Below are positions 2 to 64,000 of a stretch of 64,000 bases of DNA, in pieces. Positions within the stretch are counted from its first letter, which is position 1. Each line of letters opens with the position of its first letter. Both the position numbers and the translations under genes were made by a program. The notes under the pieces were generated by a model. The model was given only the letters and a program-made list of their open reading frames with translations. It was not told the DNA's origin and ran no database searches. This DNA comes from Tillus elongatus (lineage: Eukaryota > Arthropoda > Insecta > Coleoptera > Cleridae): the NCBI GenBank assembly GCA_964006375.1, contig OZ023264.1, positions 172,830,295 through 172,894,294 on the forward strand, read 5' to 3'.

Positions 2-265
2 TCTTCACCAACAGAGGTACAGCTCAACAACGCTCCTTTAGAGGTGTACCTGCAACTACAGCAATGTATGGGGAACACACTAAAACCAACTGATTGGGGT
101 TGTAAGATGGGCCCAGATGGAAGCCTGTGCCCCATCACCACTGACGATCCCCCTGCTCCAGAGGACATCCTCAAAGCCATATTTTGCAGTTGCATAACAG
201 GATGTGGGACACGATGTGGGTGCCCTAAAATAGGGATACATTGCTCAATAGTGTGCAACTGCTAA
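2..265 (+). CDS. C-terminal fragment of an insect cysteine-rich protein (partial)
   Basis: The frame is open from base 2 to a TAA ending at 265 and has no internal start that must be used, so it reads as the last coding piece of a gene running off the left edge. The C-terminal third is a cysteine cluster (FCSC..GCG.RCGCPK.GI.CS..CNC) that follows a DDPPAPEDIL-type proline-rich stretch and a 'DWG' segment. The same order, W-G-W, PPAPE, then CxCxxxCxxxxCxC, is known to me from the C-terminus of a repeated, uncharacterised insect protein family. It resembles CXC/tesmin-type metal-binding clusters, but I cannot assign a function. These sequences are often multicopy, so this may be a repeat-borne fragment and not a working host exon. 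Confidence 0.5.
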   Translation, partial: SSPTEVQLNNAPLEVYLQLQQCMGNTLKPTDWGCKMGPDGSLCPITTDDPPAPEDILKAIFCSCITGCGTRCGCPKIGIHCSIVCNC

Positions 266-7938: not shown

Positions 7939-9192
7939 ATGTCTGATAGCGATATTGATAATTTAGAACATTTGGAATATAGATTAAGAAATATTAGTAT
8001 TGGCGAAATTGATATTGTAGAACAACCCGATATAAATAATTCTAATGTAAATATGGCAAATCAATTCCAAGAGTTTTACCTTAAAGCAATCCCCGAATTT
8101 AACGGACAACCTGAAAATGTAGGGAACTTCTTAAAAGCTTGTGATCTAGTAATGAACCAATTCTATGATGCAGATAATCCAAATTTATATCTAAACCATT
8201 TTCTATTAAATTATATTCAAACGAAACTAATTGCACAAGCCAGGTTAATTATTAACACTAAAATTATAAACACATGGGTAGACTTAAGACGGGCAATTGT
8301 TGAGAACTTCACCGACCAGCGAGATGAAATTAGCTTACTAGGCGAATTATTAACATTGAAACAGAGACATAACGAGGATGCCTTAGCGTTCAGTAATCGT
8401 TGCAGACACATTGAACAATTACTCATCTCTAATTTAATATCTAATGAACGTAACGAGGGAATTTTAGGATTAAAACAAAACATGTACAGACAACAGACAC
8501 TGAAAGCGTTTATCGGTGGATTAAAAAACCCCCTCGGTATGGTGGTCAGATCCACTCGACCGGACAGCATAGAACAAGCTTTAAAATTTATATTTTCCGA
8601 GGAAAATTATGAATATAGGGACAGATTATTACAACGGTCAAATTTCAACAATAATAACAATAACAGGCACGACAAACAACAAAAACCAGTTTTCCAAAGA
8701 AATACCCCAAATTTTAACAATATTCAATTTCAAAAACCCTTCCAACAACAAAATTATCGTGCACCTTTTAACTATAATTTAAACAGACCCCAAATGTCTC
8801 ACCCACAATTTCAGGGAAACCCTTCAAATCAATTCTCAATGAGAAGACCGACGTACAACCCTAATGACAATACTAGAAGATATCCACAAGCTATGGATGT
8901 CGGCAGTAACAACACGAGACATACTAATTTCAGCCGACAACAACCCTCACAAAATAGACGAAACAATTTTCCTTCCAACAATTTTCAAAAAAGACAAAAT
9001 TTCATACCAGAAGAAATAAACTATAACGAAACGAATAATTCTTTTCCTTTCAATGAATTAGAAAGAAGACAACATTTCTTACCAGAAGAATTAAATTATG
9101 ACGCAACATATAATGAACAATCACCCTCCGAATTATACGATGCACAGCATCAAAATTTTCCGATAGCAGGGAGCTCAAAAACAGAACCGTAA
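7939..9192 (+). CDS. gag: Errantivirus-like gag, unit 1
   Basis: A 417-residue structural polyprotein starting at the first ATG after the leader intron donor. The N-terminal third is helical and has the KAIPEFNGQPENVGNFLKAC and RTLKAF/FIGGLKNPLG-like signatures of Gypsy-group Gag capsids. The last 170 residues are Asn/Gln/Arg-rich and probably bind RNA; no CCHC knuckle is visible, as usual in errantiviruses. The protein is identical in both units. Pol follows in the -1 frame and overlaps the gag end, so a -1 frameshift at the A-run near 9177-9181 is likely. Confidence 0.88.
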   Translation: MSDSDIDNLEHLEYRLRNISIGEIDIVEQPDINNSNVNMANQFQEFYLKAIPEFNGQPENVGNFLKACDLVMNQFYDADNPNLYLNHFLLNYIQTKLIAQARLIINTKIINTWVDLRRAIVENFTDQRDEISLLGELLTLKQRHNEDALAFSNRCRHIEQLLISNLISNERNEGILGLKQNMYRQQTLKAFIGGLKNPLGMVVRSTRPDSIEQALKFIFSEENYEYRDRLLQRSNFNNNNNNRHDKQQKPVFQRNTPNFNNIQFQKPFQQQNYRAPFNYNLNRPQMSHPQFQGNPSNQFSMRRPTYNPNDNTRRYPQAMDVGSNNTRHTNFSRQQPSQNRRNNFPSNNFQKRQNFIPEEINYNETNNSFPFNELERRQHFLPEELNYDATYNEQSPSELYDAQHQNFPIAGSSKTEP

Positions 9193-10628
9193 TAGATATT
9201 AATAATTTTAACACAATATCCCAATTACCCTACGTAATAATAAAAGAACTACCCGGAAAAATACTGATCGACTCAGGTAGTACTAAGAGCCTTTTAAACC
9301 CGTCCATAGCATATAACAACTTTTATAATAAGATTTACAATCACCCGTTTTTGATAAAAAGTTCGCATGGTTACTCCCGCCATAATAATCGAGCCAGTAT
9401 AATTTTAAACTCACTAACGGACAGTGAACAAGAGTTTTGCCTATTTGAATTTAACAAAAATTTCATAGGTCTTATTGGAATTGACTTTTTGATAAAAAAT
9501 CAAGCGAACATTGATTTTAAAAACCAGAGACTCAATTTAAAAAATCGAAGCATTAAGATAAACTTCCCTGATACAAGGGATCATGAAGATAAGATGGGTA
9601 GTAATAGTAGTAGCAATAACAATCGGATAAGTAGGATCATCAAAGCAAATGATGAAATGAATCACCTTAACGTAAGTAATACAATAGACAGAAGCATTAT
9701 TGCACTTGAACTCGACCTAGGAAAGCGTAATCAGCCATTAAATGATGACGATAGAAGGTTACAAAGAGTAAATGACATAACAAAAATGTTCACCCACAAT
9801 AAAGGTAAACGGGATCAAGTTTCATTAAACACATATGAATATCGTCGAAATAAAAATGTGAGTGATACGAGGACGATACAAAAAGATATAACGAAGCAAA
9901 TTCAAAATAAAGCAAATAGGATATTAAATAATTCTTACGATCACCAGAATTATAATAATAATTATACGGGGAGTGTACAAAAAAATATTACAGATAAAAT
10001 TAGGTTAGATGTCGTGCACAAGCCTCGACAAAATGCGAGCAATGCAGACAGTATAATGAAATATGTATATTCAATGTGTAAAGAACACAATAAAATCGAC
10101 CAACCCGTTAAAATCGAAGAGTTTATCCCAAGTACAAAAGCACCTTGTTACAGGGCGGTTATTCCGAACAAAATAAAATATACAGGCACCACGCAAAATG
10201 ATAAGTTAAGTAATAATTTAATTCAGGTACAGGACGACCATCGGCAAATAGGTAAGGAACAAATTTCACAAATAATAAAATCAAAAATCAATAACGAAAA
10301 GAAATTCTCACACGATAAGGTTTACAAGTCGGAAATAAATCCCGTAAATAATGAAACTCAATCAAGATTAAATAATATAAATAAACAAGAGAAAATCATA
10401 CATATAAACGACAATGAAATTAACGACGCAATCGGGTTATTTCACGGAAGTAAATTAAATCACATAAATGCTAAAGAAACATATTTAAGGATGAAAACTA
10501 AATTTAATTTTCCAAAAATGAAACAAAAAATAAAATCTTTTATTAGAGCTTGCCAATATTGCAATAACGAAAAAAATAACTCGTTCCAACTAAATAGATT
10601 AAACAAACAGTCCGATTATATCACCTAG
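9183..10628 (+). CDS. pol: Truncated pol, unit 1: protease plus integrase zinc finger
   Basis: Read in the -1 frame relative to gag, which is open back into the gag 3' end, so no own start is needed. The retropepsin active site LIDSGSTKS is followed by the IGLIGIDFL flap-end motif. A long Asn/Lys-rich stretch with no enzyme signatures occupies the middle. The end carries an integrase N-terminal HHCC finger (LFHGSKLNH...CQYC). RT with its YxDD motif, RNase H, and the integrase DDE core and C-terminal domain are all absent. The shortened frame is nevertheless free of stops, in both units, with two amino-acid differences between them. Confidence 0.8.
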   Translation, partial: RTVIDINNFNTISQLPYVIIKELPGKILIDSGSTKSLLNPSIAYNNFYNKIYNHPFLIKSSHGYSRHNNRASIILNSLTDSEQEFCLFEFNKNFIGLIGIDFLIKNQANIDFKNQRLNLKNRSIKINFPDTRDHEDKMGSNSSSNNNRISRIIKANDEMNHLNVSNTIDRSIIALELDLGKRNQPLNDDDRRLQRVNDITKMFTHNKGKRDQVSLNTYEYRRNKNVSDTRTIQKDITKQIQNKANRILNNSYDHQNYNNNYTGSVQKNITDKIRLDVVHKPRQNASNADSIMKYVYSMCKEHNKIDQPVKIEEFIPSTKAPCYRAVIPNKIKYTGTTQNDKLSNNLIQVQDDHRQIGKEQISQIIKSKINNEKKFSHDKVYKSEINPVNNETQSRLNNINKQEKIIHINDNEINDAIGLFHGSKLNHINAKETYLRMKTKFNFPKMKQKIKSFIRACQYCNNEKNNSFQLNRLNKQSDYIT

Positions 10629-10761
10629 CTTAGTCGAACCTAGATATTCGGATAATCGACAAACGAGACATGACGTAAGAAACTGACTAATAAATCCATA
10701 ATACTAAACGACAAAACTGACGAACAGACGATCACCAAACTAAGTAATCTTCACCTTGCAG

Positions 10762-12439
10762 GTTCATTCTCTTCACCAGAGTAAAACCACAATTAGAAGA
10801 CCTAACAGACAATCCAGGCATACTGCCACGCAAACTGGGACAAGCCTTTTCAGAAAACGATAAATGGAGAATGATTCATATACATGACCTAAGACAACTA
10901 TACGACGACTTTAACAGACTAAAAACTTACTTTGACAACATAATAAGCGTAATGAATGCAGAATACAAATTAGAATACAAAAATTTTATTTTAACAATCA
11001 ATTTCACCATCAGCAATATTGATGACACATTTTATCGAATATTTCCAAGAACGATTAGGAACAAAAGAGGTATAATAAACGGACTAGGATCAATATTCAA
11101 ATCAATAACTGGGAACTTAGATGCAGATGACGGCGACAGAATATATAAAGCTCTTGAAATTTTGAGGAAAGATCAAAATCAAGTACATCAACTTTTTAGT
11201 TCACAGACATCCCTAATGATAGATGCTATAACAGAGTTCAATAAAACAATAGACAACCTGAACCATAACCAAAAAGCCATAGTAGCGAGAATCAACGATT
11301 TGGAATATACAATAGATAGTCTAAAAAGCGACCAACTAACAAATTTTCATAGAGTAAAACATTTGGAATTACTCACTCAAATCAGTTATTTGTTAAATAA
11401 TGTACTAAACATGATATTAACAACAGAAAATGCAATTACTTTTTCAAAATTGAACACGTATCATACGTCAATACTGAAACCAAAATTTATATCAAAAGAA
11501 TTAGAAAATATTGAAAACCATATCTCAAAATCAAGATTAATAACAAAATCCGACATTTCACTTTATGAAAAAATATTTAACATAAAAACCGTTCAAATTG
11601 ATTTTAAAATTATATTCCAAATAGATATACCCTTAGTAGACAAATCAGATTATATTTATTATCAATTGTATGCATTACCAGTCCCTAAAAATCCATATAC
11701 CTTCAGAATGATTGTCCCTAGAACCAAGTACCTAATCCTTAGCAGCAAACACTACGCTTACAGAAACGAAAAGTGTAGGAATCTAAAAGACCAGACATAC
11801 TTTTGTGAAAATGACAACCCGACAGCACTTAACGAAAACAACCCATGCGAAATTAAACTGATCAACTTCCAGAAACCGATAAACAATTGCAAGCAAGAAC
11901 TTGTCAAAATAACAAAAACAACAGTCTCTAAATATGGCAATACCCAATACATAATAGTGGCACCCGAAGAAACGAAAATTAAACTTAGCTGCGAAGAAAA
12001 TGAAGAAACCAAAATAATCAGCGGAACAAAACTGGCGACTCTGAAACCCAAATGCCAATTTATCATCAATAACGAAAGATTTAGTTCAGTACAAATGGCA
12101 TCGGAAACACAACAATCGTTCAATCTCCCAAACATCGAATTGGTAACAAATAAAGCACCCATATTCCCAGACAAATTACCAGAACTAAAATTAGAAAATG
12201 TCCAACTGCACGACTTGAACAATATCAAATCCCAGTTACAATCCATCAATGGCAAAATTCCAGGAACCATCGATTTGCCCATATACCACCCTAGTGTATG
12301 GACAATTATACTATACCTTGTGATAATAATAACAATAATCACAATAACTGCTAGATACTTCTGGCAAAAATCAAAAACGAAAACTGCTGACTCCAAACCA
12401 ATTACTGGATTCCCGATGACTATTCGGAACGAACCATAG
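10762..12439 (+). CDS. env: Env, F-like fusion glycoprotein, unit 1
   Basis: The exon opens at a predicted acceptor (10761/10762) and the first internal ATG is at 10871, giving 522 residues from that ATG. Counting from it, a furin-type site RNKR (63-66) precedes a GIINGLGSIFKSITG fusion-peptide-like segment, the hallmark of baculovirus-F-related errantiviral Env. A helical heptad-like region follows, then a cysteine-containing ectodomain, one membrane segment at about 476-496 and a short basic tail. Family knowledge says such proteins mediate membrane fusion; whether this one works is unknown. It differs from the unit 2 protein at three positions by my reading. Confidence 0.85.
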
Positions 12440-13066: not shown

Positions 13067-14320
13067 ATGTCTGATAGCGATATTGATAATTTAGAACATT
13101 TGGAATATAGATTAAGAAATATTAGTATTGGCGAAATTGATATTGTAGAACAACCCGATATAAATAATTCTAATGTAAATATGGCAAATCAATTCCAAGA
13201 GTTTTACCTTAAAGCAATCCCCGAATTTAACGGACAACCTGAAAATGTAGGGAACTTCTTAAAAGCTTGTGATCTAGTAATGAACCAATTCTATGATGCA
13301 GATAATCCAAATTTATATCTAAACCATTTTCTATTAAATTATATTCAAACGAAACTAATTGCACAAGCCAGGTTAATTATTAACACTAAAATTATAAACA
13401 CATGGGTAGACTTAAGACGGGCAATTGTTGAGAACTTCACCGACCAGCGAGATGAAATTAGCTTACTAGGCGAATTATTAACATTGAAACAGAGACATAA
13501 CGAGGATGCCTTAGCGTTCAGTAATCGTTGCAGACACATTGAACAATTACTCATCTCTAATTTAATATCTAATGAACGTAACGAGGGAATTTTAGGATTA
13601 AAACAAAACATGTACAGACAACAGACACTGAAAGCGTTTATCGGTGGATTAAAAAACCCCCTCGGTATGGTGGTCAGATCCACTCGACCGGACAGCATAG
13701 AACAAGCTTTAAAATTTATATTTTCCGAGGAAAATTATGAATATAGGGACAGATTATTACAACGGTCAAATTTCAACAATAATAACAATAACAGGCACGA
13801 CAAACAACAAAAACCAGTTTTCCAAAGAAATACCCCAAATTTTAACAATATTCAATTTCAAAAACCCTTCCAACAACAAAATTATCGTGCACCTTTTAAC
13901 TATAATTTAAACAGACCCCAAATGTCTCACCCACAATTTCAGGGAAACCCTTCAAATCAATTCTCAATGAGAAGACCGACGTACAACCCTAATGACAATA
14001 CTAGAAGATATCCACAAGCTATGGATGTCGGCAGTAACAACACGAGACATACTAATTTCAGCCGACAACAACCCTCACAAAATAGACGAAACAATTTTCC
14101 TTCCAACAATTTTCAAAAAAGACAAAATTTCATACCAGAAGAAATAAACTATAACGAAACGAATAATTCTTTTCCTTTCAATGAATTAGAAAGAAGACAA
14201 CATTTCTTACCAGAAGAATTAAATTATGACGCAACATATAATGAACAATCACCCTCCGAATTATACGATGCACAGCATCAAAATTTTCCGATAGCAGGGA
14301 GCTCAAAAACAGAACCGTAA
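13067..14320 (+). CDS. gag: Errantivirus-like gag, unit 2
   Basis: Second copy of the 417-residue Gag, with identical protein sequence to the copy at 7939-9192. The absence of any difference over 1.25 kb contrasts with scattered differences in the 3' part of the unit, which suggests recent duplication or conversion of the 5' half. Confidence 0.88.
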   Translation: MSDSDIDNLEHLEYRLRNISIGEIDIVEQPDINNSNVNMANQFQEFYLKAIPEFNGQPENVGNFLKACDLVMNQFYDADNPNLYLNHFLLNYIQTKLIAQARLIINTKIINTWVDLRRAIVENFTDQRDEISLLGELLTLKQRHNEDALAFSNRCRHIEQLLISNLISNERNEGILGLKQNMYRQQTLKAFIGGLKNPLGMVVRSTRPDSIEQALKFIFSEENYEYRDRLLQRSNFNNNNNNRHDKQQKPVFQRNTPNFNNIQFQKPFQQQNYRAPFNYNLNRPQMSHPQFQGNPSNQFSMRRPTYNPNDNTRRYPQAMDVGSNNTRHTNFSRQQPSQNRRNNFPSNNFQKRQNFIPEEINYNETNNSFPFNELERRQHFLPEELNYDATYNEQSPSELYDAQHQNFPIAGSSKTEP

Positions 14321-15756
14321 TAGATATTAATAATTTTAACACAATATCCCAATTACCCTACGTAATAATAAAAGAACTACCCGGAAAAATACTGATCGAC
14401 TCAGGTAGTACTAAGAGCCTTTTAAACCCGTCCATAGCATATAACAACTTTTATAATAAGATTTACAATCACCCGTTTTTGATAAAAAGTTCGCATGGTT
14501 ACTCCCGCCATAATAATCGAGCCAGTATAATTTTAAACTCACTAACGGACAGTGAACAAGAGTTTTGCCTATTTGAATTTAACAAAAATTTCATAGGTCT
14601 TATTGGAATTGACTTTTTGATAAAAAATCAAGCGAACATTGATTTTAAAAACCAGAGACTCAATTTAAAAAATCGAAGCATTAAGATAAACTTCCCTGAT
14701 ACAAGGGATCATGAAGATAAGATGGGTAGTAATAGTAGTAGCAATAACAATCGGATAAGTAGGATCATCAAAGCAAATGATGAAATGAATCACCTTAACG
14801 TAAGTAATACAATAGACAGAAGCATTATTGCACTTGAACTCGACCTAGGAAAGCGTAATCAGCCATTAAATGATGACGATAGAAGGTTACAAAGAGTAAA
14901 TGACATAACAAAAATGTTCACCCACAATAAAGGTAAACGGGATCAAGTTTCATTAAACACATATGAATATCGTCGAAATAAAAATGTGAGTGATACGAGG
15001 ACGATACAAAAAGATATAACGAAGCAAATTCAAAATAAAGCAAATAGGATATTAAATAATTCTTACGATCACCAGAATTATAATAATAATTATACGGGGA
15101 GTGTACAAAAAAATATTACAGATAAAATTAGGTTAGATGTCTTGCACAAGCCTCGACAAAAAGCGAGCAATGCAGACAGTATAATGAAATATGTATATTC
15201 AATGTGTAAAGAACACAATAAAATCGACCAACCCGTTAAAATCGAAGAGTTTATCCCAAGTACAAAAGCACCTTGTTACAGGGCGGTTATTCCGAACAAA
15301 ATAAAATATACAGGCACCACGCAAAATGATAAGTTAAGTAATAATTTAATTCAGGTACAGGACGACCATCGGCAAATAGGTAAGGAACAAATTTCACAAA
15401 TAATAAAATCAAAAATCAATAACGAAAAGAAATTCTCACACGATAAGGTTTACAAGTCGGAAATAAATCCCGTAAATAATGAAACTCAATCAAGATTAAA
15501 TAATATAAATAAACAAGAGAAAATCATACATATAAACGACAATGAAATTAACGACGCAATCGGGTTATTTCACGGAAGTAAATTAAATCACATAAATGCT
15601 AAAGAAACATATTTAAGGATGAAAACTAAATTTAATTTTCCAAAAATGAAACAAAAAATAAAATCTTTTATTAGAGCTTGCCAATATTGCAATAACGAAA
15701 AAAATAACTCGTTCCAACTAAATAGATTAAACAAACAGTCCGATTATATCACCTAG
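14311..15756 (+). CDS. pol: Truncated pol, unit 2
   Basis: Same layout as unit 1: retropepsin (DSGS), Asn/Lys-rich linker, integrase HHCC finger, and no RT, RNase H or integrase core. Two replacements are visible against unit 1 (Val to Leu and Asn to Lys in the linker near 15140-15165). The shared deletion shows that it predates the tandem arrangement. Confidence 0.8.
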   Translation, partial: RTVIDINNFNTISQLPYVIIKELPGKILIDSGSTKSLLNPSIAYNNFYNKIYNHPFLIKSSHGYSRHNNRASIILNSLTDSEQEFCLFEFNKNFIGLIGIDFLIKNQANIDFKNQRLNLKNRSIKINFPDTRDHEDKMGSNSSSNNNRISRIIKANDEMNHLNVSNTIDRSIIALELDLGKRNQPLNDDDRRLQRVNDITKMFTHNKGKRDQVSLNTYEYRRNKNVSDTRTIQKDITKQIQNKANRILNNSYDHQNYNNNYTGSVQKNITDKIRLDVLHKPRQKASNADSIMKYVYSMCKEHNKIDQPVKIEEFIPSTKAPCYRAVIPNKIKYTGTTQNDKLSNNLIQVQDDHRQIGKEQISQIIKSKINNEKKFSHDKVYKSEINPVNNETQSRLNNINKQEKIIHINDNEINDAIGLFHGSKLNHINAKETYLRMKTKFNFPKMKQKIKSFIRACQYCNNEKNNSFQLNRLNKQSDYIT

Positions 15757-15889
15757 CTTAGTCGAACCTAGATATTCGGATAATCGACAAACGAGACATG
15801 ACGTAAGAAACTGACTAATAAATCCATAATACTAAACGACAAAACTGACGAACAGACGATCACCAAACTAAGTAATCTTCACCTTGCAG

Positions 15890-17567
15890 GTTCATTCTCT
15901 TCACCAGAGTAAAACCACAATTAGAAGACCTAACAGACAATCCAGGCATACTGCCACGCAAACTGGGACAAGCCTTTTCAGAAAACGATAAATGGAGAAT
16001 GATTCATATACATGACCTAAGACAACTATACGACGACTTTAACAGACTAAAAACTTACTTTGACAACATAATAAGCGTAATGAATGCAGAATACAAATTA
16101 GAATACAAAAATTTTATTTTAACAATCAATTTCACCATCAGCAATATTGATGACACATTTTATCGAATATTTCCAAGAACGATTAGGAACAAAAGAGGTA
16201 TAATAAACGGACTAGGATCAATATTCAAATCAATAACTGGGAACTTAGATGCAGATGACGGCGACAGAATATATAAAGCTCTTGAAATTTTGAGGAAAGA
16301 TCAAAATCAAGTACATCAACTTTTTAGTTCACAGACATCCCTAATGATAGATGCTATAACAGAGTTCAATAAAACAATAGACAACCTGAACCATAACCAA
16401 GAAGCCATAGTAGCGAGAATAAACGATTTGGAATATACAATAGATAGTCTAAAAAGCGACCAACTAACAAATTTTCATAGAGTAAAACATTTGGAATTAC
16501 TCACTCAAATCAGTTATTTGTTAAATAATGTACTAAACATGATATTAACAACAGAAAATGCAATTACTTTTTCAAAATTGAACACGTATCATACGTCAAT
16601 ACTGAAACCAAAATTTATATCAAAAGAATTAGAAAATATTGAAAACCATATCTCAAAATCAAGATTAATAACAAAATCCGACATTTCACTTTATGAAAAA
16701 ATATTTAACATAAAAACCGTTCAAATTGATTTTAAAATTATATTCCAAATAGATATACCCTTAGTAGACAAATCAGATTATATTTATTATCAATTGTATG
16801 CATTACCAGTCCCTAAAAATCCATATACCTTCAGAATGATTGTCCCTAGAACCCAGTACCTAATCCTTAGCAGCAAACACTACGCTTACAGAAACGAAAA
16901 GTGTAGGAATCTAAAAGACCAGACATACTTTTGTGAAAATGACAACCCGACAGCACTTAACGAAAACAACCCATGCGAAATTAAACTGATCAACTTCCAG
17001 AAACCGATAAACAATTGCAAGCAAGAACTTGTCAAAATAACAAAAACAACAGTCTCTAAATATGGCAATACCCAATACATAATAGTGGCACCCGAAGAAA
17101 CGAAAATCAAACTTAGCTGCGAAGAAAATGAAGAAACCAAAATAATCAGCGGAACAAAACTGGCGACTCTGAAACCCAAATGCCAACTTATCATCAATAA
17201 CGAAAGATTTAGTTCAGTACAAATGGCATCGGAAACACAACAATCGTTCAATCTCCCAAACATCGAATTGGTAACAAATAAAGCACCCATATTCCCAGAC
17301 AAATTACCAGAACTAAAATTAGAAAATGTCCAACTGCACGACTTGAACAATATCAAATCCCAGTTACAATCCATCAATGGCAAAATTCCAGGAACCATCG
17401 ATTTGCCCATATACCACCCTAGTGTATGGACAATTATACTATACCTTGTGATAATAATAACAATAATCACAATAACTGCAAGATACTTCTGGCAAAAATC
17501 AAAAACGAAAACTGCTGACTCCAAACCAATTACTGGATTCCCGATGACTATTCGGAACGAACCATAG
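15890..17567 (+). CDS. env: Env, F-like fusion glycoprotein, unit 2
   Basis: Full-length open frame with the RNKR cleavage site, fusion-peptide-like segment and C-terminal membrane span, as in unit 1. Three replacements are seen (Lys/Glu, Lys/Gln, Phe/Leu) along with a few silent changes. Long minus-strand frames across this region are shadows of the low-GC codons. Confidence 0.85.

Positions 17568-26642: not shown

Positions 26643-26715
<73 letters not shown>
26523..26715. repeat. End of a dispersed repeat copy plus (TA)n
   Basis: TTTAGTGAATTTTTGAGGAT followed by the 'cccgacttttgaa', 'gcccc..gaac' and 'ggggtcagtttc' blocks and (TA)n at 26647-26715, matching the outer end of the family. The Penelope-like element begins directly after the AT tract. 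Confidence 0.7.
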
Positions 26716-26720
<5 letters not shown>

Positions 26721-26767
26721 CATGCTTGGTTCTCGGGTTAAACCGCGTCCAGAATTTATGGAAACTC

Positions 26768-26802
26768 GACGTTTCGGCTCCTGTTTTGGAGCCATTTTCA
26801 AG
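26768..26802 (-). ncRNA. Hammerhead-ribozyme-like motif, left end of the Penelope element (degenerate)
   Basis: Minus strand: TTGAAAA in the place of the CUGANGA core (C3 and G8 changed), a 6-bp stem II GGCTCC/GGAGCC, then GAAACGTC, which gives the A15.1-U16.1 and C-G pairs of a minimal stem III and cleavage base C17. CTC/GAG can form the start of stem I. The core changes make self-cleavage doubtful. Confidence 0.5.
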
Positions 26803-26914
26803 AGGTAAAGGAAATATGTAAGGACACTCTAAGGCCTCAATCTGCCTACTCCTTAGAGTGATGGACAAAGGTGGGTAAAGGAAATATGTAAGGACACTCT
26901 AAATCCAGTTCACC

Positions 26915-28012
26915 ATGGAAATGGAAAATAATTTTTCTTTGCCTTTCTTAGATGTACGCATCACTAAAAACCCAGTCAGAGGATTTTCTTACACTGTCTA
27001 CCGAAAACCAACCCACACTAATCGGTATCTTAACGCCCAATCTCACCATCACCCATCGCAACTAAATTCCGTGGTTCGAACATTAGTAACACGATCCCTT
27101 AGACTAACGGACAACAACAACAAACAGACAGAATTAAACTTTTTAAGACAGACATTGCTAGAAAACGGATACGACAACAATCACATACTACGAAACATTA
27201 GAAACGCACAACAACAAACCACTACACCACAACAAGAACAAACAGCGTCCACACAACAACACACAGCGTTTTTACCATACATTAAGGGTGTCACCGACAA
27301 AATCAGCCGAATTTTCAGAACCCATAATATCAAAACCGTATTCACAACAGACCAAAAACTATCAAATCTTATAAAAACTCCCAAGGATACGATTCCAAAC
27401 GAATCCCACGGAGTTTACGAAATTCCTTGTTCCGACTGTTCCCGAACTTACGTAGGACAAACAAACAGACGCATCCACAATAGAATATACGAACACACCC
27501 TCGCAGTTAGAAAATCCGACCCCTCATCGGCGCTGGCCATGCATCATATTCATACAGGGCACAAAATAGACTTCGATAATGCCAAAACAATAGCACCGGT
27601 TTACAATTTCAAAACGAGAATTATCCGCGAAGCAATCGAGATTGAAAAACGTCCCGATTGTTTAAATAAGAGAGATGATGGTCTTCGCCTTCCGACTACT
27701 TGGAAACCTATTATATCTTCTTTGCAAACACACAAAAGGGAAATGAATTCCACAGACAATTTTGTTGCATCATTATCCCCCCACTTAATTGCCGGTGACC
27801 CCACTACTTTCACTGATGACGCAACAGGTAGACGAAACGACCTATATAAGACGAGACTTGCAACGAACTGCCAGATCTCTCTGAGGCCTAGGGTTGAACA
27901 CACTGAGACCTCACAGACGATCTCCAGCGAGATTTGGGGAGTAGGCAGATTGAGGCCCCGTAATCGAGCTACAACAACCCAACCTACCTTTATCCACCAC
28001 TCCAAGGAGTAG
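26915..28012 (+). CDS. Penelope-like element: RT thumb region plus GIY-YIG endonuclease
   Basis: 365 residues. The N-terminus has LPFLDVRITK and TVYRKPTHTNRYL, the conserved end of Penelope-type reverse transcriptases. Residues about 165-240 form a GIY-YIG nuclease: GVYEIPCSDCSRTYVGQT, then R and H residues in NRIYEH, and a later REAIEIEK with the catalytic Glu. The fingers and palm of RT with the YxDD motif should lie upstream but are missing, so the element is 5' truncated and the ATG at 26915 is probably not native. The last 25 codons run into the first degenerate 70-bp repeat. The frame has no stop. Confidence 0.82.
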   Translation: MEMENNFSLPFLDVRITKNPVRGFSYTVYRKPTHTNRYLNAQSHHHPSQLNSVVRTLVTRSLRLTDNNNKQTELNFLRQTLLENGYDNNHILRNIRNAQQQTTTPQQEQTASTQQHTAFLPYIKGVTDKISRIFRTHNIKTVFTTDQKLSNLIKTPKDTIPNESHGVYEIPCSDCSRTYVGQTNRRIHNRIYEHTLAVRKSDPSSALAMHHIHTGHKIDFDNAKTIAPVYNFKTRIIREAIEIEKRPDCLNKRDDGLRLPTTWKPIISSLQTHKREMNSTDNFVASLSPHLIAGDPTTFTDDATGRRNDLYKTRLATNCQISLRPRVEHTETSQTISSEIWGVGRLRPRNRATTTQPTFIHHSKE

Positions 28013-28403
28013 GCAGATTGAGGCCTTAGAGTGTCCTTACATATTTCCTTTACCTACCTTTGTCCACCACTCTAAGGAGTAGGCAGATTGAGGCCTTAGA
28101 GTGTCCTTACATATTTCCTTTACCTACCTTTGTCCACCACTCTAAGGAGTAGGCAGATTGAGGCCTTAGAGTGTCCTTACATATTTCCTTTACCCACCTT
28201 TGTCCATCACTCTAAGGAGTAGGCAGATTGAGGCCTTAGAGTGTCCTTACATATTTCCTTTACCCACATTTGTCCACCACTCTAAGTAGTAGGCAGATTG
28301 AGGCCTTAGAGTGTCCTTACATATTTCCTTTACCCACCTTTGTCCATCACTCTAAGGAGTAGGCAGATTGAGGCCTTAGAGTGTCCTTACATATTTCCTT
28401 TAC
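27940..28403 (+). repeat. 70-bp tandem array in the Penelope 3' region
   Basis: The marker AGGCAGATTG occurs at 28011, 28081, 28151, 28221, 28291 and 28361, an exact 70-bp period, with a degenerate earlier unit at 27943 inside the ORF. Inverted copies (about 1.4 units) lie at 26803-26902. Units differ at a few bases only. Confidence 0.92.
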
Positions 28404-28405
28404 CT

Positions 28406-28440
28406 CTTGAAAATGGCTCCAAAACAGGAGCCTAAACGTC
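28406..28440 (+). ncRNA. Hammerhead-ribozyme-like motif, right end of the Penelope element (degenerate)
   Basis: Inverted counterpart of 26768-26802. It carries one further change (TAAAC for GAAAC), so G12 is also lost. Same 6-bp stem II. Confidence 0.45.
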
Positions 28441-28518
28441 GAGTTTCCATAAATTCTGGACGCGGTTTAACCCGAGAACCAAGCATGTCTCACATTAAAG
28501 ACCGCGGAAATCTTTCTG

Positions 28519-28520
<2 letters not shown>

Positions 28521-28601
<81 letters not shown>
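28521..28601. repeat. (TA)n microsatellite
   Basis: About 80 bp of uninterrupted TA between the Penelope element and a Gypsy LTR end. Confidence 0.95.
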
Positions 28602-28606
<5 letters not shown>

Positions 28607-32522: not shown

Positions 32523-32586
32523 CTCGGCTCGAATGTACTTTTGAAATATCTGTTTACCACTGTCACATATGTACGGCACAATTAGA

Positions 32587-32629
32587 ACCGTAGACCGGTT
32601 TCGCTCTAATTAGAACTCAGCAGTACGGC
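32587..32629 (-). ncRNA. Hammerhead ribozyme motif, tandem copy 1 (A6 changed)
   Basis: Minus strand: stem I GCCGTA/TACGGT, core CTGCTGA (A6 is C), stem II GTTCT/AGAGC, then GAAACCGGTC with a minimal stem III. The core change should abolish cleavage. Confidence 0.65.
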
Positions 32630-32907
32630 ATACTAATTGTAGCAAAAATACACATATAAACTAAAACGGCTATGGTAGCCAGCCTTCCAACACTAAGTGA
32701 GTGGTAAGACACGAAGCAACGTGCCACCGCCTAGTTGCGGAACCAAGTAGTATGTTGTCACACCAGCTCCAAATAACACAAAGTGTTAAAAAATAGAGAC
32801 TGTATACAACCAACTAACAATTTAGTAAATTGTCAGCCCTGGCCCTAATTCTACCCTAAAATGGGGACAAAGTATGTAAGGCTAGATGCATTCTCGCCAC
32901 AATTAGA

Positions 32908-32950
32908 ACCGTAGACCGGTTTCGCTCTAATTAGAGCTCGTCAGTACGGC
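32908..32950 (-). ncRNA. Hammerhead ribozyme motif, tandem copy 2 (intact core)
   Basis: Minus strand: stem I GCCGTA/TACGGT (6 pairs including a terminal G-U), perfect core CTGACGA, stem II GCTCT-AATT-AGAGC (5 pairs), GAAA, stem III AC/GT around CG, and C17 before the predicted cleavage point. Every conserved hammerhead position is met. Very short stem III hammerheads of this type are known in Penelope elements and animal satellites and often work as dimers, which a tandem array would provide. Confidence 0.8.
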
Positions 32951-33430
32951 ATACTAATTGTAGCAAAAATACACCTATAAAGTAATACGGCTATGGTAGC
33001 CAGCCTTCCAACACTAAGTGAGTGATAAGACACGACGCAACGTGCCGCCACCTAGTTGCGGAACCAAGTAGTATGTTGTCACGCCAGCTCCAAATAACAA
33101 AATTGTGGTGAAAATCCATCTAGCCTTACCTACTTTGTCCCTATATTAGCGTAGGAATGGGCAAGGGCTGACAATATACTAAAATGTTAGTTGGTTGTAT
33201 ACATTCTCTATTTTTTAACACTTTGTGTTATTTTAAGCTGGTGTGACAACATATTACTTGGTTCCGCAACTAGGTGGCGGCACAATGCTTCGTGTCTTAC
33301 CACTCATTTAGCACTCTCACATATGTTGGATGAGGTACTATCAAGGCATGCTTGTTTGTTCGTGGCCGCTAAAAAAGTCATCACAAAATGACCAAACCCC
33401 TAAAGACAAGTTTAATATCGAATTGGTATA

Positions 33431-35496
33431 CAGTGTGGAACAGCCAAATGGAATAAATTCGATAACGGATAAATGAGGGCGTGTTGGGAAAAACGCTTGG
33501 ACACGTCGATTTGTATTTTTAACTGCGCATCTTTTTCAAGAAAAAAAAATTATATAGGGTGCGTCATGTGACAGTGGCCAATACCAACTTTCTTATTTTA
33601 AATACAAGCCCCTGTATATTATTAATTTTTTGGATTCTTCAGAAAATTCTAGACATAATTCATGTACAATGTCCTATACCTATCTTCAACTGTTTCGGAA
33701 ATATTAAGTATTTTCAGATTTATTACAAAAATTAACATTAAAAATAGAAAATTATTTTATTTCACAAATTCGCTACATTGCATTCAATACTTATTTCCCA
33801 TTCAGCTCTTGATAATGAGAAAGTAAACAAAAACCATTCCTGCGTTTCTTTTTACTGATATGAAATGAAACAAAAACAAAAACAGTTTTCTTTCTGTTCG
33901 TATAAAACTCGTAGCCTTAGCAACTTGTTGTCTGCCTGCATGACAGTAGTGATTAGTGTCAGTGCTATTGTCGTTTGAATTTCGTTAACTGTACGTAATA
34001 ATATCAGAAAAATGGTTCATTTAACAGAAATGCACAAAATAACCATTCTACAAATGATTGGTTATGGAGATAACACACGGACACAGATGGAAGTGTCTCG
34101 CTTATTTCACGAAAAATTTCCAAATTTGCCGCCTGTATCCCAAGGAACAATTAGCAAAATAGAAAAGCAGTTTCGCGAGCTTGGTCATGTGAGACAGATA
34201 AAAAAAGTAGCTGCCAATGCAGTAAGTGGTGATACGAAATTGGATATTACGCTTGAGTTTCAAGAAAACCCACATACTTCTGGTCGACAAGCAGCCCAAC
34301 TATTCAACGTTAGCCATACAGCAATTTTTCGAACATTAAAGGAAAGTAATATGCATCCCTATAAAATGATACCAACTCAGGAGCTCATGGAGGACGATTT
34401 CGATAGGAGAACGTATTTTTGTGAACAAATGATGGCAATGTTAGATAACAATGTGATCCAATTAGAAGATGTTTTGTTTTCTGATGAGAGCACATTTACA
34501 CTTCACGGTCATGTTAATCGTCAAAATTGCCGCTATTGGTCTAATGAGAATCCTCATTGGATGAGAGAGGAACATACGCAATATCCTGAAAAAGTTAATG
34601 TTTGGGCAGGAATTGTTGGAAATCATATCGTAGGTCCCTTTTTCATTGATGGCAACTTGAATGGGGATAAATATTTAGAACTGCTCCAAAATAATGTCGT
34701 GCCAACTTTGACAAACTTATATCCAGATCCAGCAAACCCACAAGTTCCTGCCAATAAAATATGGTTTCAGCAAGATGGAGCACCGCCCCATTACCAAATC
34801 AATGTCCGGCAGTACCTGAACCAAATTTTTCCAAATCGGTGGATAGGGAGGCGCGGATCGATAGAATGGCCAGCACGATCTCCTGATCTGTCGCTATTAG
34901 ACTACTTTTTGTGGGGATATGTCAAAAGTATTGTATACAAAACTAAGCCCCTCAACTTAGATGACTTAAAAAGACGAATCACGCTTGCGATTAGATCAGT
35001 CACGCCTGAGATGTTGAGTAATGTTAGAAGACATTTCTATACCAGATTAGCATGTTGCCAAGATGTTCGTGGCGAGCATTTTGAACATTTACTACATTGA
35101 CATTAATTTTTTTTGTTTTTTTAAATTATTAAGAAATAATCAGTATTTCTTATTAGAATTTGTGAAATAAAATAATTTTCTATTTTTAATGTTAATTTTT
35201 GTAATAAATCTGAAAATACTTAATATTTCCGAAACAGTTGAAGATAGGTATAGGACATTGTACATGAATTATGTCTAGAATTTTCTGAAGAATCCAAAAA
35301 ATTATTAATATACAGGGGCTTGTATTTAAAATAAGAAAGTTGGTATTGGCCACTGTCACATGACGCACCCTATATAATTTTTTTTTCTTGAAAAAGATGC
35401 GCAGTTAAAAATACAAATCGACGTGTCCAAGCGTTTTTCCCAACACGTCCTCATTTATCCGTTATCGAATTTATTCCATTTGGCTGTTCCACACTG
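33431..35496 (+). mobile_element. DD41D mariner-type transposon, apparently complete
   Basis: 2,066 bp, bounded by TA. The ends CAGTGTGGAACAGCC... and its inverse continue as inverted repeats for about 345 bp each (33431-33775 and 35152-35496) with only an occasional mismatch (for example near 33479/35448). It encodes one intact transposase. Confidence 0.92.
34012..35100 (+). CDS. Mariner-like transposase, DD41D type
   Basis: 362 residues with no stop. The N-terminus has the GYGDNTRTQMEVSRLF helix-turn-helix (DUF4817-like) of this group and a second helical domain near 75-110. Catalytic residues by count are D158 (LFSDEST), D255 (FQQDGAPPHY) and D297 (SPDLSLLDYF), so the spacing of the last two is 41, the rosa-like DD41D class. 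The ATG at 34012 follows the 345-bp inverted repeat and a short leader. The length fits a full transposase. Intact frame plus near-identical inverted repeats point to a recent insertion. Confidence 0.93.
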   Translation: MVHLTEMHKITILQMIGYGDNTRTQMEVSRLFHEKFPNLPPVSQGTISKIEKQFRELGHVRQIKKVAANAVSGDTKLDITLEFQENPHTSGRQAAQLFNVSHTAIFRTLKESNMHPYKMIPTQELMEDDFDRRTYFCEQMMAMLDNNVIQLEDVLFSDESTFTLHGHVNRQNCRYWSNENPHWMREEHTQYPEKVNVWAGIVGNHIVGPFFIDGNLNGDKYLELLQNNVVPTLTNLYPDPANPQVPANKIWFQQDGAPPHYQINVRQYLNQIFPNRWIGRRGSIEWPARSPDLSLLDYFLWGYVKSIVYKTKPLNLDDLKRRITLAIRSVTPEMLSNVRRHFYTRLACCQDVRGEHFEHLLH

Positions 35497-46099: not shown

Positions 46100-46340
46100 A
46101 ATTTGTAACACAACTTTCTTAAAGATACTTGCAGTACTTACATAAATGTATCAAATTTTAATTACCTATTTCGATAGAAAATAGAAATTTCCTCACTCAA
46201 TTGCTTACAGGGACCTCTAAAACCCATCTCCAAGGTTCGTTCAAATTTAAAGAATTAGTTTTAATAATATATCTTACTAATAGTGTACAATTCTAGTGAA
46301 AATTCACTACAATAATGCACTTGCTGCGTCCAGAATATTT
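46100..46340. repeat. Dispersed repeat fragment, matches 39685-39925
   Basis: Same orientation and block order as 39685-39925, ending CACTTGCTGCGTCCAGA. Confidence 0.65.
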
Positions 46341-46344
46341 TATT

Positions 46345-46550
46345 ATAATAACACGAAGTGTTTATTAGACCTGCCGTGACAACGTATTACCTGGCTATGC
46401 CACCGATGGCGACACTGTCGTACATCTCACTATGTTCTACGAGACTGGCTACCTTTAACCGAACTTGCTTTTCGGTGTATTCTGGCTGTGATTTGGTATG
46501 ACGCACTGATGAGCTCTAATGAGAGCAAAACCGGTATGCGTTTTTAATTA
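46345..46550 (+). repeat. Diverged copy of the hammerhead-bearing repeat
   Basis: Reads like the minus strand of 32901-33095: 'gtgacaacgtattacctgg', 'tctacgagactggctacc' and then the ribozyme motif. Identity is clearly lower than between the two 32-33 kb units. Confidence 0.65.
46501..46541 (+). ncRNA. Hammerhead ribozyme motif (G12 changed), compensated stem I
   Basis: Stem I ACGCA/TGCGT, perfect core CTGATGA, stem II GCTCT-AATG-AGAGC, then AAAAC in place of GAAAC (G12 is A), stem III AC/GT around CG, and A17. Stem I differs in sequence from the 32.9-kb homologue but still pairs fully. The G12 change probably abolishes activity. Confidence 0.65.
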
Positions 46551-46851
46551 TAGTCTGAGTGCAACTGGCCTTATACACCAAGTATCGCTTTCTCTCTCAG
46601 ATTTTAACTTTGGACTCAGATAAGTTTTGCGAAATTTTAACATTTTGATGCAAACGATATACTGCCGCTTTATTCACCACGTCCTTTGGATCATACTAGG
46701 TATTTCTGAATTTTATTACGTGATCAGACTTATTTTTTTCTTGTCCTGTAAACCCCCAGAATCTTAGTTTTGTTCTATTTCACACAACTGGTATACTTAC
46801 CAGAACCTACTTAAAATATATAAATCACAATCAGCCTCGCTGCATCTTACA

Positions 46852-62549: not shown

Positions 62550-64000
62550 GGTCGCTGATAAGTCTGGAAACGGTCGATTATCCGGGAAAAAATACAAGGT
62601 GTCGAAAAAAGTTTTATACAAAAGTTTTTGGGTTCTTCAATGTCTACTAGGCGGTGATAATTTCATTTATACAGGGTTGGTCATACAGGCGTGGCACACC
62701 AATATTAATTTTTTTTTAATGGAACACCCTATATATTATTCGATATTTCAATCCTTCTCTTAATTTTGAGCAACATTTATGAGAAGCATAATGTACCTAA
62801 ACTCAATCGTTTCCGGGTAAAAAAATAAATAAAAATAAACGCTCCTGTTTTTAAAATCTATTGGATGAAGAACAAAAATAAATGAAAAGTAGAATATCTC
62901 TTGAAAACAATCTGTGAGTGTGAAAAGAACCGGTTGCGATGTTTTTAACATTGTTTGGAATCCCAAGATAAGATAAGATGCCCATAAGAAACGCAGTATT
63001 ATTCTTTTGTTTTAAAATGTTTCCAGGACAACGAATGTCAAACATTCATTCAGTGTCAACAGTTTTGAAACATTAGTAATTTAGTGTCAACAGTTTTTGT
63101 GCAAAATGGCAAGTTTAAGTGAAACCGAACGTATCGAAATTTTAATGATGATAGGGTACGGTGATAGAACACGAAGTTTTGCTCAAGTGGTGATTATGTT
63201 CAATGAGTTGCATCCTGAGCGGGAATCGATCTCCAAATCCACAGTTTCGAAAACTTTGCATCGTTTTCACGAAACTGGCGGTATCAAGGATAAACCTAGA
63301 ACTGGAAGGCCAGTAACCGTTACAAATGAAGAAAATTCTTTGAATGTAATATTGGATGTGGTGGAAAATCCGAAAACTTCGGCACAGCAATTGGCTTTAA
63401 ATCACAATATGAGTCGATATTCAATTCAAAAGATTACGAAGCGGGAAAAGTTCCGTCCATATAAAAATCATTTATTGCAAGAGCTGAGTGAAGACGATTT
63501 TGATCGCAGAATCGAGTTCTGTGAACTTATTATGGAGAAGTTACGCCAAAATTTTAACTTTGCCAACCACATTTTGTTTTCCGACGAATCTACATTTTGT
63601 TTGAATACACAAGTCAACCGACACAACTGTAGGTACTGGTCAGACGAAAACCCACATTGGATGGAACAAATTCACACCCAAAGACCGCAAAAAGTAAATG
63701 TTTGGTAAGCTATTATTGGTGGACATATCATAGGACTTTATTTTATACACGGTAATTTGAACTCTGCTCGATATTTGACACTTTTGCAAGAATCAATTGT
63801 TCCAGACGTTAGTCGATTATTTCCGAACAATAACGACCCAAATCTACCAGGGGAAGAAATATGGTTTCAGCAGGATGGGGCACCCCCTCATTTTGGAATT
63901 GAGGTACGGGAATATCTGAATCAAACCTTTCCTGGCAGATGGATAGGGCGCAGGGGAACTATTGAATGGCCAGCTAGGTCTCCCGACATGACGCCGCTTG
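62547..64000 (+). mobile_element. Second mariner-type (DD41D-like) element, right end outside the window
   Basis: Begins CAGGGTCGCTGATAAGTCTGG directly after the last TA of an AT microsatellite. The 5' region of about 560 bp precedes the transposase frame. The right inverted repeat is beyond 64000, so its state is unknown. Confidence 0.75.
63106..64000 (+). pseudogene. Mariner-like transposase with one in-frame stop (partial)
   Basis: Homologous to the 34012-35100 protein: MIGYGDRTRSFAQVVIMFNE, STVSKTLHRFHETGGIKD, RTGRPVTVTNEE, QELSEDDFDRRIEFCE, FSDESTFCL (first Asp) and FQQDGAPPHF (second Asp). A TAA at 63706-63708 follows VNVW, and the same frame continues normally to the window edge. The third catalytic Asp should lie just past 64000. 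The single stop suggests a fairly recent loss. The residue after VNVW is Ala in the intact relative. Confidence 0.85.

Follow-up and report, generated by a model that had tools for sequence, protein, structure and literature searches.

Two preferred end sites and head-to-head arms in a hammerhead retrozyme family of the beetle Tillus elongatus

Introduction

What kind of element is the tandem pair of hammerhead-bearing repeats, with its inverted arm, that lies in a 64,000-nucleotide stretch of Tillus elongatus DNA (the whole stretch analysed, hereafter the window), and which type of enzyme could have put it there? Elements of a comparable kind have been described by Cervera and de la Pena (2020) as metazoan non-LTR retrozymes. 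In the main text of that paper (PMC7229834) they carry a type I hammerhead in tandem units of 150-450 bp, have a GC content below 45-50% and duplications of more than 4 bp, are without LTR or coding part and have a self-paired unit RNA; insects are named there among the hosts, without detail.

Head-to-head arms are also a matter of Penelope retroelements. In the available text of PMC11167929, the Penelope protein of the anole cuts the two strands of the DNA and extends each of them; its starts are at two sites inside the RNA, which accounts for the genomic tail, and hammerhead cleavage is not required for insertion in vitro. Rotifer Penelope copies, as described in the available part of PMC3846280, have inverted repeats placed head to head, one of which may bear a tail, and some of the copies are flanked by duplications of 8-10 bp.

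Results and Discussion

The insertion and its unit

Self-comparison, alignment and a flanking duplication delimit an insertion made of two arms, which are joined by their 5' ends with an overlap of 6 nt at the junction (Table 1). The inverted arm seen in the initial annotation of the window is real, but its coordinates are 33101-33311 and not 33105-33315; it matches 32693-32904, and the left 120 bp of the insertion are without an inverted counterpart. The outer (3') end of arm 1 lies 20 nt beyond the cleavage point of hammerhead 1 (+20), off the preferred site A defined below. When 20000 places of the window were drawn at random, 6 had a repeat of 14/15 bases at such a spacing (plus or minus 8); in a looser control, 22 of 3000 places reached a score of 12, compared to 14 for the real pair.

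The open reading frames overlapping the insertion are of 40-66 aa only, and the repeat comparison of the window showed no LTR-like pair for the retrozyme. Folded as a circle, the 321-nt unit gave −105.1 kcal/mol (z −5.0, 200 shuffles) compared to −66.1 for the antisense.

A long inverted repeat between duplications is also what an inverted-repeat DNA transposon (MITE or foldback element) has. The two termini of the insertion, however, do not form an inverted pair, as the repeat is internal and the left 120 bp are unmatched, and different end sites are found in 13 of the 16 clean end pairs of the genome copies described below; such an origin is hardly credible.

Table 1. Coordinates of the retrozyme insertion, of its diverged relative and of the Penelope-like element in the window.
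Feature	Position	Strand	Remarks
Truncated Penelope-like element in TA microsatellite	26713..28521	+	Inverted arm 26713-26902, sense arm 26903-28521, head to head
Left target-site duplication, CACTGTCACATATGT	32558..32572		14/15 identical to 33312-33326
Whole retrozyme insertion, two putative cDNA arms head to head	32573..33311		Self-comparison, alignment, flanking target-site duplication
Arm 1	32573..33106	-	Sense on minus strand; ~1.66 units of 321 nt
Hammerhead 1	32578..32640	-	A6 to C in core; predicted cleavage point 32593/32592
Full unit, cleavage point to cleavage point	32593..32913	-	321 nt, 41.7% GC, no long ORF
Hammerhead 2 with outer stem I	32899..32961	-	Intact core 32950-32908; predicted cleavage 32914/32913
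Arm 2	33101..33311	+	Sense on plus strand; 0.66 unit, unit +10 to +221; outer 3' end at site B
Right target-site duplication, CACTCTCACATATGT	33312..33326		20-bp version (18/20) also possible
Diverged family member	46297..46573	+	~70% identical; left limit approximate; right end +37 after cleavage point, at site A
Hammerhead of diverged copy	46488..46551	+	G12 to A, C17 to A; HH9 25.1 bits, E 0.065 (below gathering)

Hammerhead ribozymes at the locus

The minus strand from 32950 to 32908 reads GCCGTA CTGACGA GCTCTAATTAGAGC GAAA CCGGT C TACGGT, which is a complete type I hammerhead (hammerhead 2) with six pairs in stem I, one of them G-U, five pairs in stem II and every core position present. 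Both descriptor and fold bear out the initial annotation, which had found all the conserved positions on the minus strand at 32908-32950. The second hammerhead that it had seen 321 bp away, with A6 changed to C, is there as well, its further differences from hammerhead 2 being at N7 and in stem II, where one C-to-U change retains a G-U pair. The two-pair stem III that had been proposed is not possible, as ACCGGU permits one A-U pair at most, the loop being the palindromic CCGG.

In the energy model, stem III of the monomer is preferably unpaired, and a competing fold that pairs up the core is 3.2 kcal/mol better than the hammerhead form of the monomer. Two motifs sharing a six-pair stem III reach −46.7 compared to −44.2 for two misfolded monomers. 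These modelled energetics of stem III would fit a dimeric cleavage.

With the strict descriptor, intact-core matches numbered 0 in 100 Markov-1 windows. When up to one core change was allowed, there were 5 matches in the 100 Markov-1 windows compared to 3 in the real window, all three of which are members of the retrozyme family. A looser descriptor gave 1 intact match in the window and 2 in 200 control windows. The pattern alone is weak evidence, because the bare pattern without stems matched 7 times in the window compared to a mean of 1.8 in shuffles. Rfam covariance models do match the motif, but under the curated score: Hammerhead_HH9 gave 25.9 bits (gathering 52), with an E of 6e-4 over 1.1 kb and 0.036 over 64 kb, and the Rfam search returned no match at gathering score.

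The three hammerheads of the window were compared in a 19-pair structure, in which 56 of 57 cells are paired and three pairs show double changes, two of them in inner stem I. Sliding the structure out of register left 0 double changes, and column shuffles were as good in 24 of 500 cases, only three sequences being compared. A model built from the three motifs found no fourth hammerhead in the 64-kb window, and a 30-nt pattern of the motif had no match in the viral_contigs or genome_contigs collections. In the diverged copy at 46 kb, the pairing of stem I is kept through double changes. Identity of this copy is 35/43 in the core compared to 135/186 in the surroundings (P 0.16), and its borders showed no convincing duplication, the best direct repeats being of 9-11 nt in AT-rich letters.

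Since the two units of the insertion differ by ~7% (14/209), one damaged core is the outcome expected of decay, and the intact core of hammerhead 2, judged from these differences, is therefore no sign of present use at the locus.

The family in the genome

The exact intact 31-nt motif occurs 3,459 times (1770 + 1689) in the 1.72 Gb genome, in 30 contigs, compared to 0 + 0 for a reversed-pattern control in the same search. Forty loci were read, namely those with the most window-like units out of 3006 first-look candidates. One retrozyme insertion was present on three contigs (L013, L014 and L033) with flanks 97-99% alike, which points to its having been copied inside a larger repeat. L014 and L033 were left out as the same insertion as L013 (flanks 97% or more alike), giving 38 independent insertions.

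In 23 of 30 loci we found full units, bounded by a cleavage point on either side, 31 in all; 30 of these units measure 318-321 nt and one 327 nt, a spacing that leaves no room for a coding part. The copies are dispersed insertions on many contigs, without long arrays, the longest of the 40 loci read being 1658 bp. In the sampled copies the core is intact in 61 of 90 motifs. Conservation of the core above its flanks, the initial annotation's own criterion, is not seen in the diverged 46-kb copy nor in the sampled copies, with 33/900 substitutions in the core compared to 71/1710 in the rest, and this counts against the initial reading by that measure. As 61 of 90 motifs keep an intact core, we read the absence of excess conservation as decay after insertion.

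By the sequence features tested, the element is a metazoan non-LTR retrozyme and as such of a known kind: it has the type I hammerhead, tandem units of ~320 nt, low GC, the lack of coding part and duplications, here of 11-14 bp, that the main text of PMC7229834 gives for these elements. The genome copies show the features of the non-autonomous, RNA-processed element with tandem hammerheads that had been suggested from the window.

Tandem units would equally suit a satellite DNA spread by recombination, with a fortuitous hammerhead, and hammerhead satellites are known from cave crickets: pDo500 of Dolichopoda, described as satellite DNA in the available text of PMC2837043, is likewise a tandem repeat of insects that carries a hammerhead, with compensatory changes in its stems. 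Long arrays, however, are absent from the 40 loci read, and the family consists of short insertions dispersed on many contigs, with duplications and fixed ends; the duplications at the copies with two different end sites (below) already argue against a satellite, which we hold to be very improbable.

Two preferred end sites

Ends were counted from the cleavage point, site A being +30..48 (mostly 36-41) and site B +212..230 (mostly 216-225). The 61 outer sense-3' ends of the 38 independent insertions fall at site A in 32 cases, at site B in 20 and elsewhere in 9. The value of 52/61 at A or B has a P of 4e-39, with the limits of the sites drawn after seeing the ends and the 9 outside kept in the totals. 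The outer 5' ends (n = 15) are scattered, from 29 to 313. Head-to-head insertions number 23 of 38 and one-sided ones 15, and none has two outer 5' ends, so that an inverted arm is common in the family and not peculiar to the window locus. The Penelope-like terminal architecture that the initial annotation had read from this arm is indeed seen in the genome copies, but the element is a retrozyme and not a Penelope terminal repeat. The reading of the inverted arm as a single copy with a simple 5' inversion was dropped, as the genome copies have preferred sites at both outer ends.

The clean end pairs are A-B in 13 cases, A-A in 3 and B-B in none (P 0.006). Duplications of 11-14 bp flank 11 of the 13 AB insertions, 9 of these 11 being perfect, compared to 1 of the 25 others; this sole duplicated non-AB insertion is that of the window, which has its left end outside site A. 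The duplication detector gave 0 at 756 displaced boundaries. The duplicated words are AT-rich (71%) and are not simple repeats.

Nine independent loci were fetched after the sites had been noted. In these, 7 of 12 ends fell within the noted limits (P 3e-6) and 8 of 12 within wider limits, and three loci were head to head; they held 0 clean AB pairs and 0 duplications found by the detector. The 13 AB copies and the 12 duplications were, without exception, found in the first 30 loci. Additionally, among 100 listed of the 3,459 motifs, which were not chosen by unit, opposite-strand neighbours at 1.5 kb or less are head to head in 9 of 9 cases.

In the fold of the window unit, sites A and B lie opposite each other on one helix. 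This facing was tried as a rule and is weak, since no more than 5 of the 31 unit folds show it; in 10 of the 31, the pair A-B ranks within the nearest tenth of pairs with the same spacing.

Mobilisation by a LINE, in which twin priming of the L1 kind would produce the 5' inversions, has to be weighed against these ends. Inversions with duplications of this length are known from LINEs, and overlaps of 1-7 bases are present at many of the head-to-head joints. Twin priming is, however, expected to leave the second outer end at scattered places, whereas both outer ends here have fixed sites, mostly one of each kind. Neither end of the 12 printed copies carries a poly-A or simple-repeat tail, and the proportion of head-to-head copies, 23/38, also speaks against a LINE, which is an unlikely agent.

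Rare variants and the templates

Variants present at 10% or less were taken as rare, and unit segments of less than 80 nt were left out of the sharing counts. Successive units of the same arm share 71 of 813 rare variants, compared to 14 of 752 for opposite arms and 727 of 76930 between loci; of 1000 permutations, none reached the same-arm value. This sharing within and between arms suggests that each arm was copied either from a single RNA gone over repeatedly or from a multimer whose units are nearly identical, and that the two arms come mostly from different RNAs. The two-RNA step would not be absolute, because opposite arms share slightly above background, their value being reached by 13 of the 1000 permutations. 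Sense stretches longer than one unit, together with outer ends past the cleavage point, require a template in which this point is bridged, be it a circle or an uncut multimer; shared variants would be expected equally from both.

The Penelope family of the window

The truncated Penelope-like element of the window has an inverted arm of 190 nt, identical at 188/190 positions, and its outer ends are at +83 and +109 from an ATG at 28413. This ATG is presumed to be the start of the next Penelope ORF, by its position and by an open frame of 37 codons up to the microsatellite. The ORF at 26915-28012 gave a GIY-YIG match of 21.0 bits, just below the curated cut-off of 22.6, and the protein has insect relatives with RT domains, the named best ones including Harmonia, Leptinotarsa, Anoplophora and Pyrocoelia. 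Approximately six copies of a 70-bp tandem repeat are found at 27982-28405, starting within the end of this ORF, and part of the repeat is also in the inverted arm. No canonical hammerhead was found in the element by descriptor; a hairpin GGCUCC/GGAGCC followed by UAAACGUC overlaps the ATG and is a degenerate hammerhead by eye only.

Among 40 scored genome matches of the Penelope end region, the 3' end is at +106..109 in 33 and at or near +83 in 7. Two opposite ends are in view in 13 of the 30 Penelope loci fetched, and all 13 are head to head, with ends at +77..87 and +106..109. The 112 protein matches listed have an identity of 99-100%, a frame of 921 residues being present in many of them, and the family of 26713-28602 and its genome copies can be taken as young. 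Among the same 112 listed matches, all 20 neighbours on opposite strands at 10 kb or less are arranged head to head, and same-strand neighbours are 3063 bp apart in 10 of 12, forming tandem arrays. TA/AC microsatellites flank the Penelope copies in 7 of 7 checked.

The repeats could then be remnants of the terminal repeats of Penelope itself, with no separate retrozyme, hammerheads and head-to-head ends being Penelope features in the available parts of PMC3846280 and PMC11167929. Against this, the unit spacing of 318-321 nt in 30/31 (327 in one) leaves no coding room, and the retrozyme unit shares no word of at least 10 nt with the end region of the window's Penelope, the only Penelope family compared; remnants are quite unlikely.

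Because of its microsatellite targets and of the absence of a shared end word of at least 10 nt, the window's Penelope family is probably not the direct driver of the retrozyme. Another Penelope family of the genome is the more likely driver.

A proposed route of insertion

We propose that the retrozyme was inserted by two-ended target-primed copying with an enzyme of the Penelope type, an explanation that we give, as a whole, a probability of about 0.74. The hammerheads, the two end sites, the head-to-head arms, the duplications and the sharing of rare variants within, and mostly not between, arms are seen in the sequence itself; to these we infer cleavage, circle formation, a Penelope-type enzyme and two RNAs per event. 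Tandem units of ~320 nt would be transcribed and then cut by their hammerheads, which, given the weakness of a lone stem III, would probably act two at a time. A monomer would then be closed into a circle, or the RNA would stay a multimer. A Penelope-type reverse transcriptase/endonuclease would then nick both strands of AT-rich DNA, 11-14 bp apart, and the 3' end of each nick would prime one RNA, one at site A (~+36..41) and the other at site B (~+216..225). Each copy may pass round its RNA more than once, and where the two unfinished cDNA ends meet they would join head to head, yielding an inverted insertion between short duplications.

More tentatively, and with rather less than an even chance of being right, a dimeric Penelope-type enzyme might hold two different circular retrozyme RNAs, start on them at A and B and copy them in a rolling manner until the cDNAs meet; the tandem and inverted copies of Penelope would likewise arise from circular or multimeric RNA.

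Relation to known systems

The retrozyme resembles Penelope-like elements, as described in the available texts, in that it has arms joined head to head, units in tandem, a choice of two 3' ends and, in part of the copies, short duplications; it also shares with them a hammerhead, which is minimal and, in the model, without a stable helix III. Unlike Penelope it has no RT or GIY-YIG coding part and has a sequence of its own, with units of ~320 nt compared to 3063, and its end sites, counted round the circle from B to A, are separated by ~136 nt compared to 26 in the window's Penelope.

The present copies differ from the metazoan retrozymes printed in the main text of PMC7229834 in that they often consist of two arms head to head and have two preferred end sites; that main text contains none of the terms inverted, head-to-head and opposite orientation. 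Its authors find most invertebrate helices III stable, whereas helix III is weak here, as in amphibians. By helix III, there is a likeness to the retrozyme hammerheads of newt satellite 2 and axolotl Amex1, for which the same text gives one pair, a palindromic tetraloop and an expected dimeric cutting; at most one pair and a palindromic tetraloop are found here too, although the host is an insect.

Among the entries listed in a literature search over titles and the openings of abstracts, with subscription journals mostly outside it, none described head-to-head retrozyme copies or fixed retrozyme end sites. The retrozyme itself being of a known kind, the new part is how its copies end, at two sites and with arms head to head, which is a mark in a family of thousands of motifs. 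The match between this layout and that of Penelope retroelements suggests the kind of enzyme that moves the retrozyme, and the latter offers Penelope research a small, coding-free substrate for two-ended priming, start-site choice and the tandem outcome.

Other elements in the window

The window also holds two near-identical retrovirus-like elements in tandem, at 7939-12439 and 13067-17567 (5128 bp apart), with an envelope-like ORF; the first copy has a Baculo_F match. An ORF on the minus strand at 2046-2753 has a Phage_integrase (tyrosine recombinase) match, presumably of the sort that occurs in Crypton or DIRS-like elements. Two transposase-like ORFs lie at 34012-35100 and 63097-63708, and have what we take to be a mariner/Tc1 look; weak Pfam transposase/helix-turn-helix matches were obtained only in the second.
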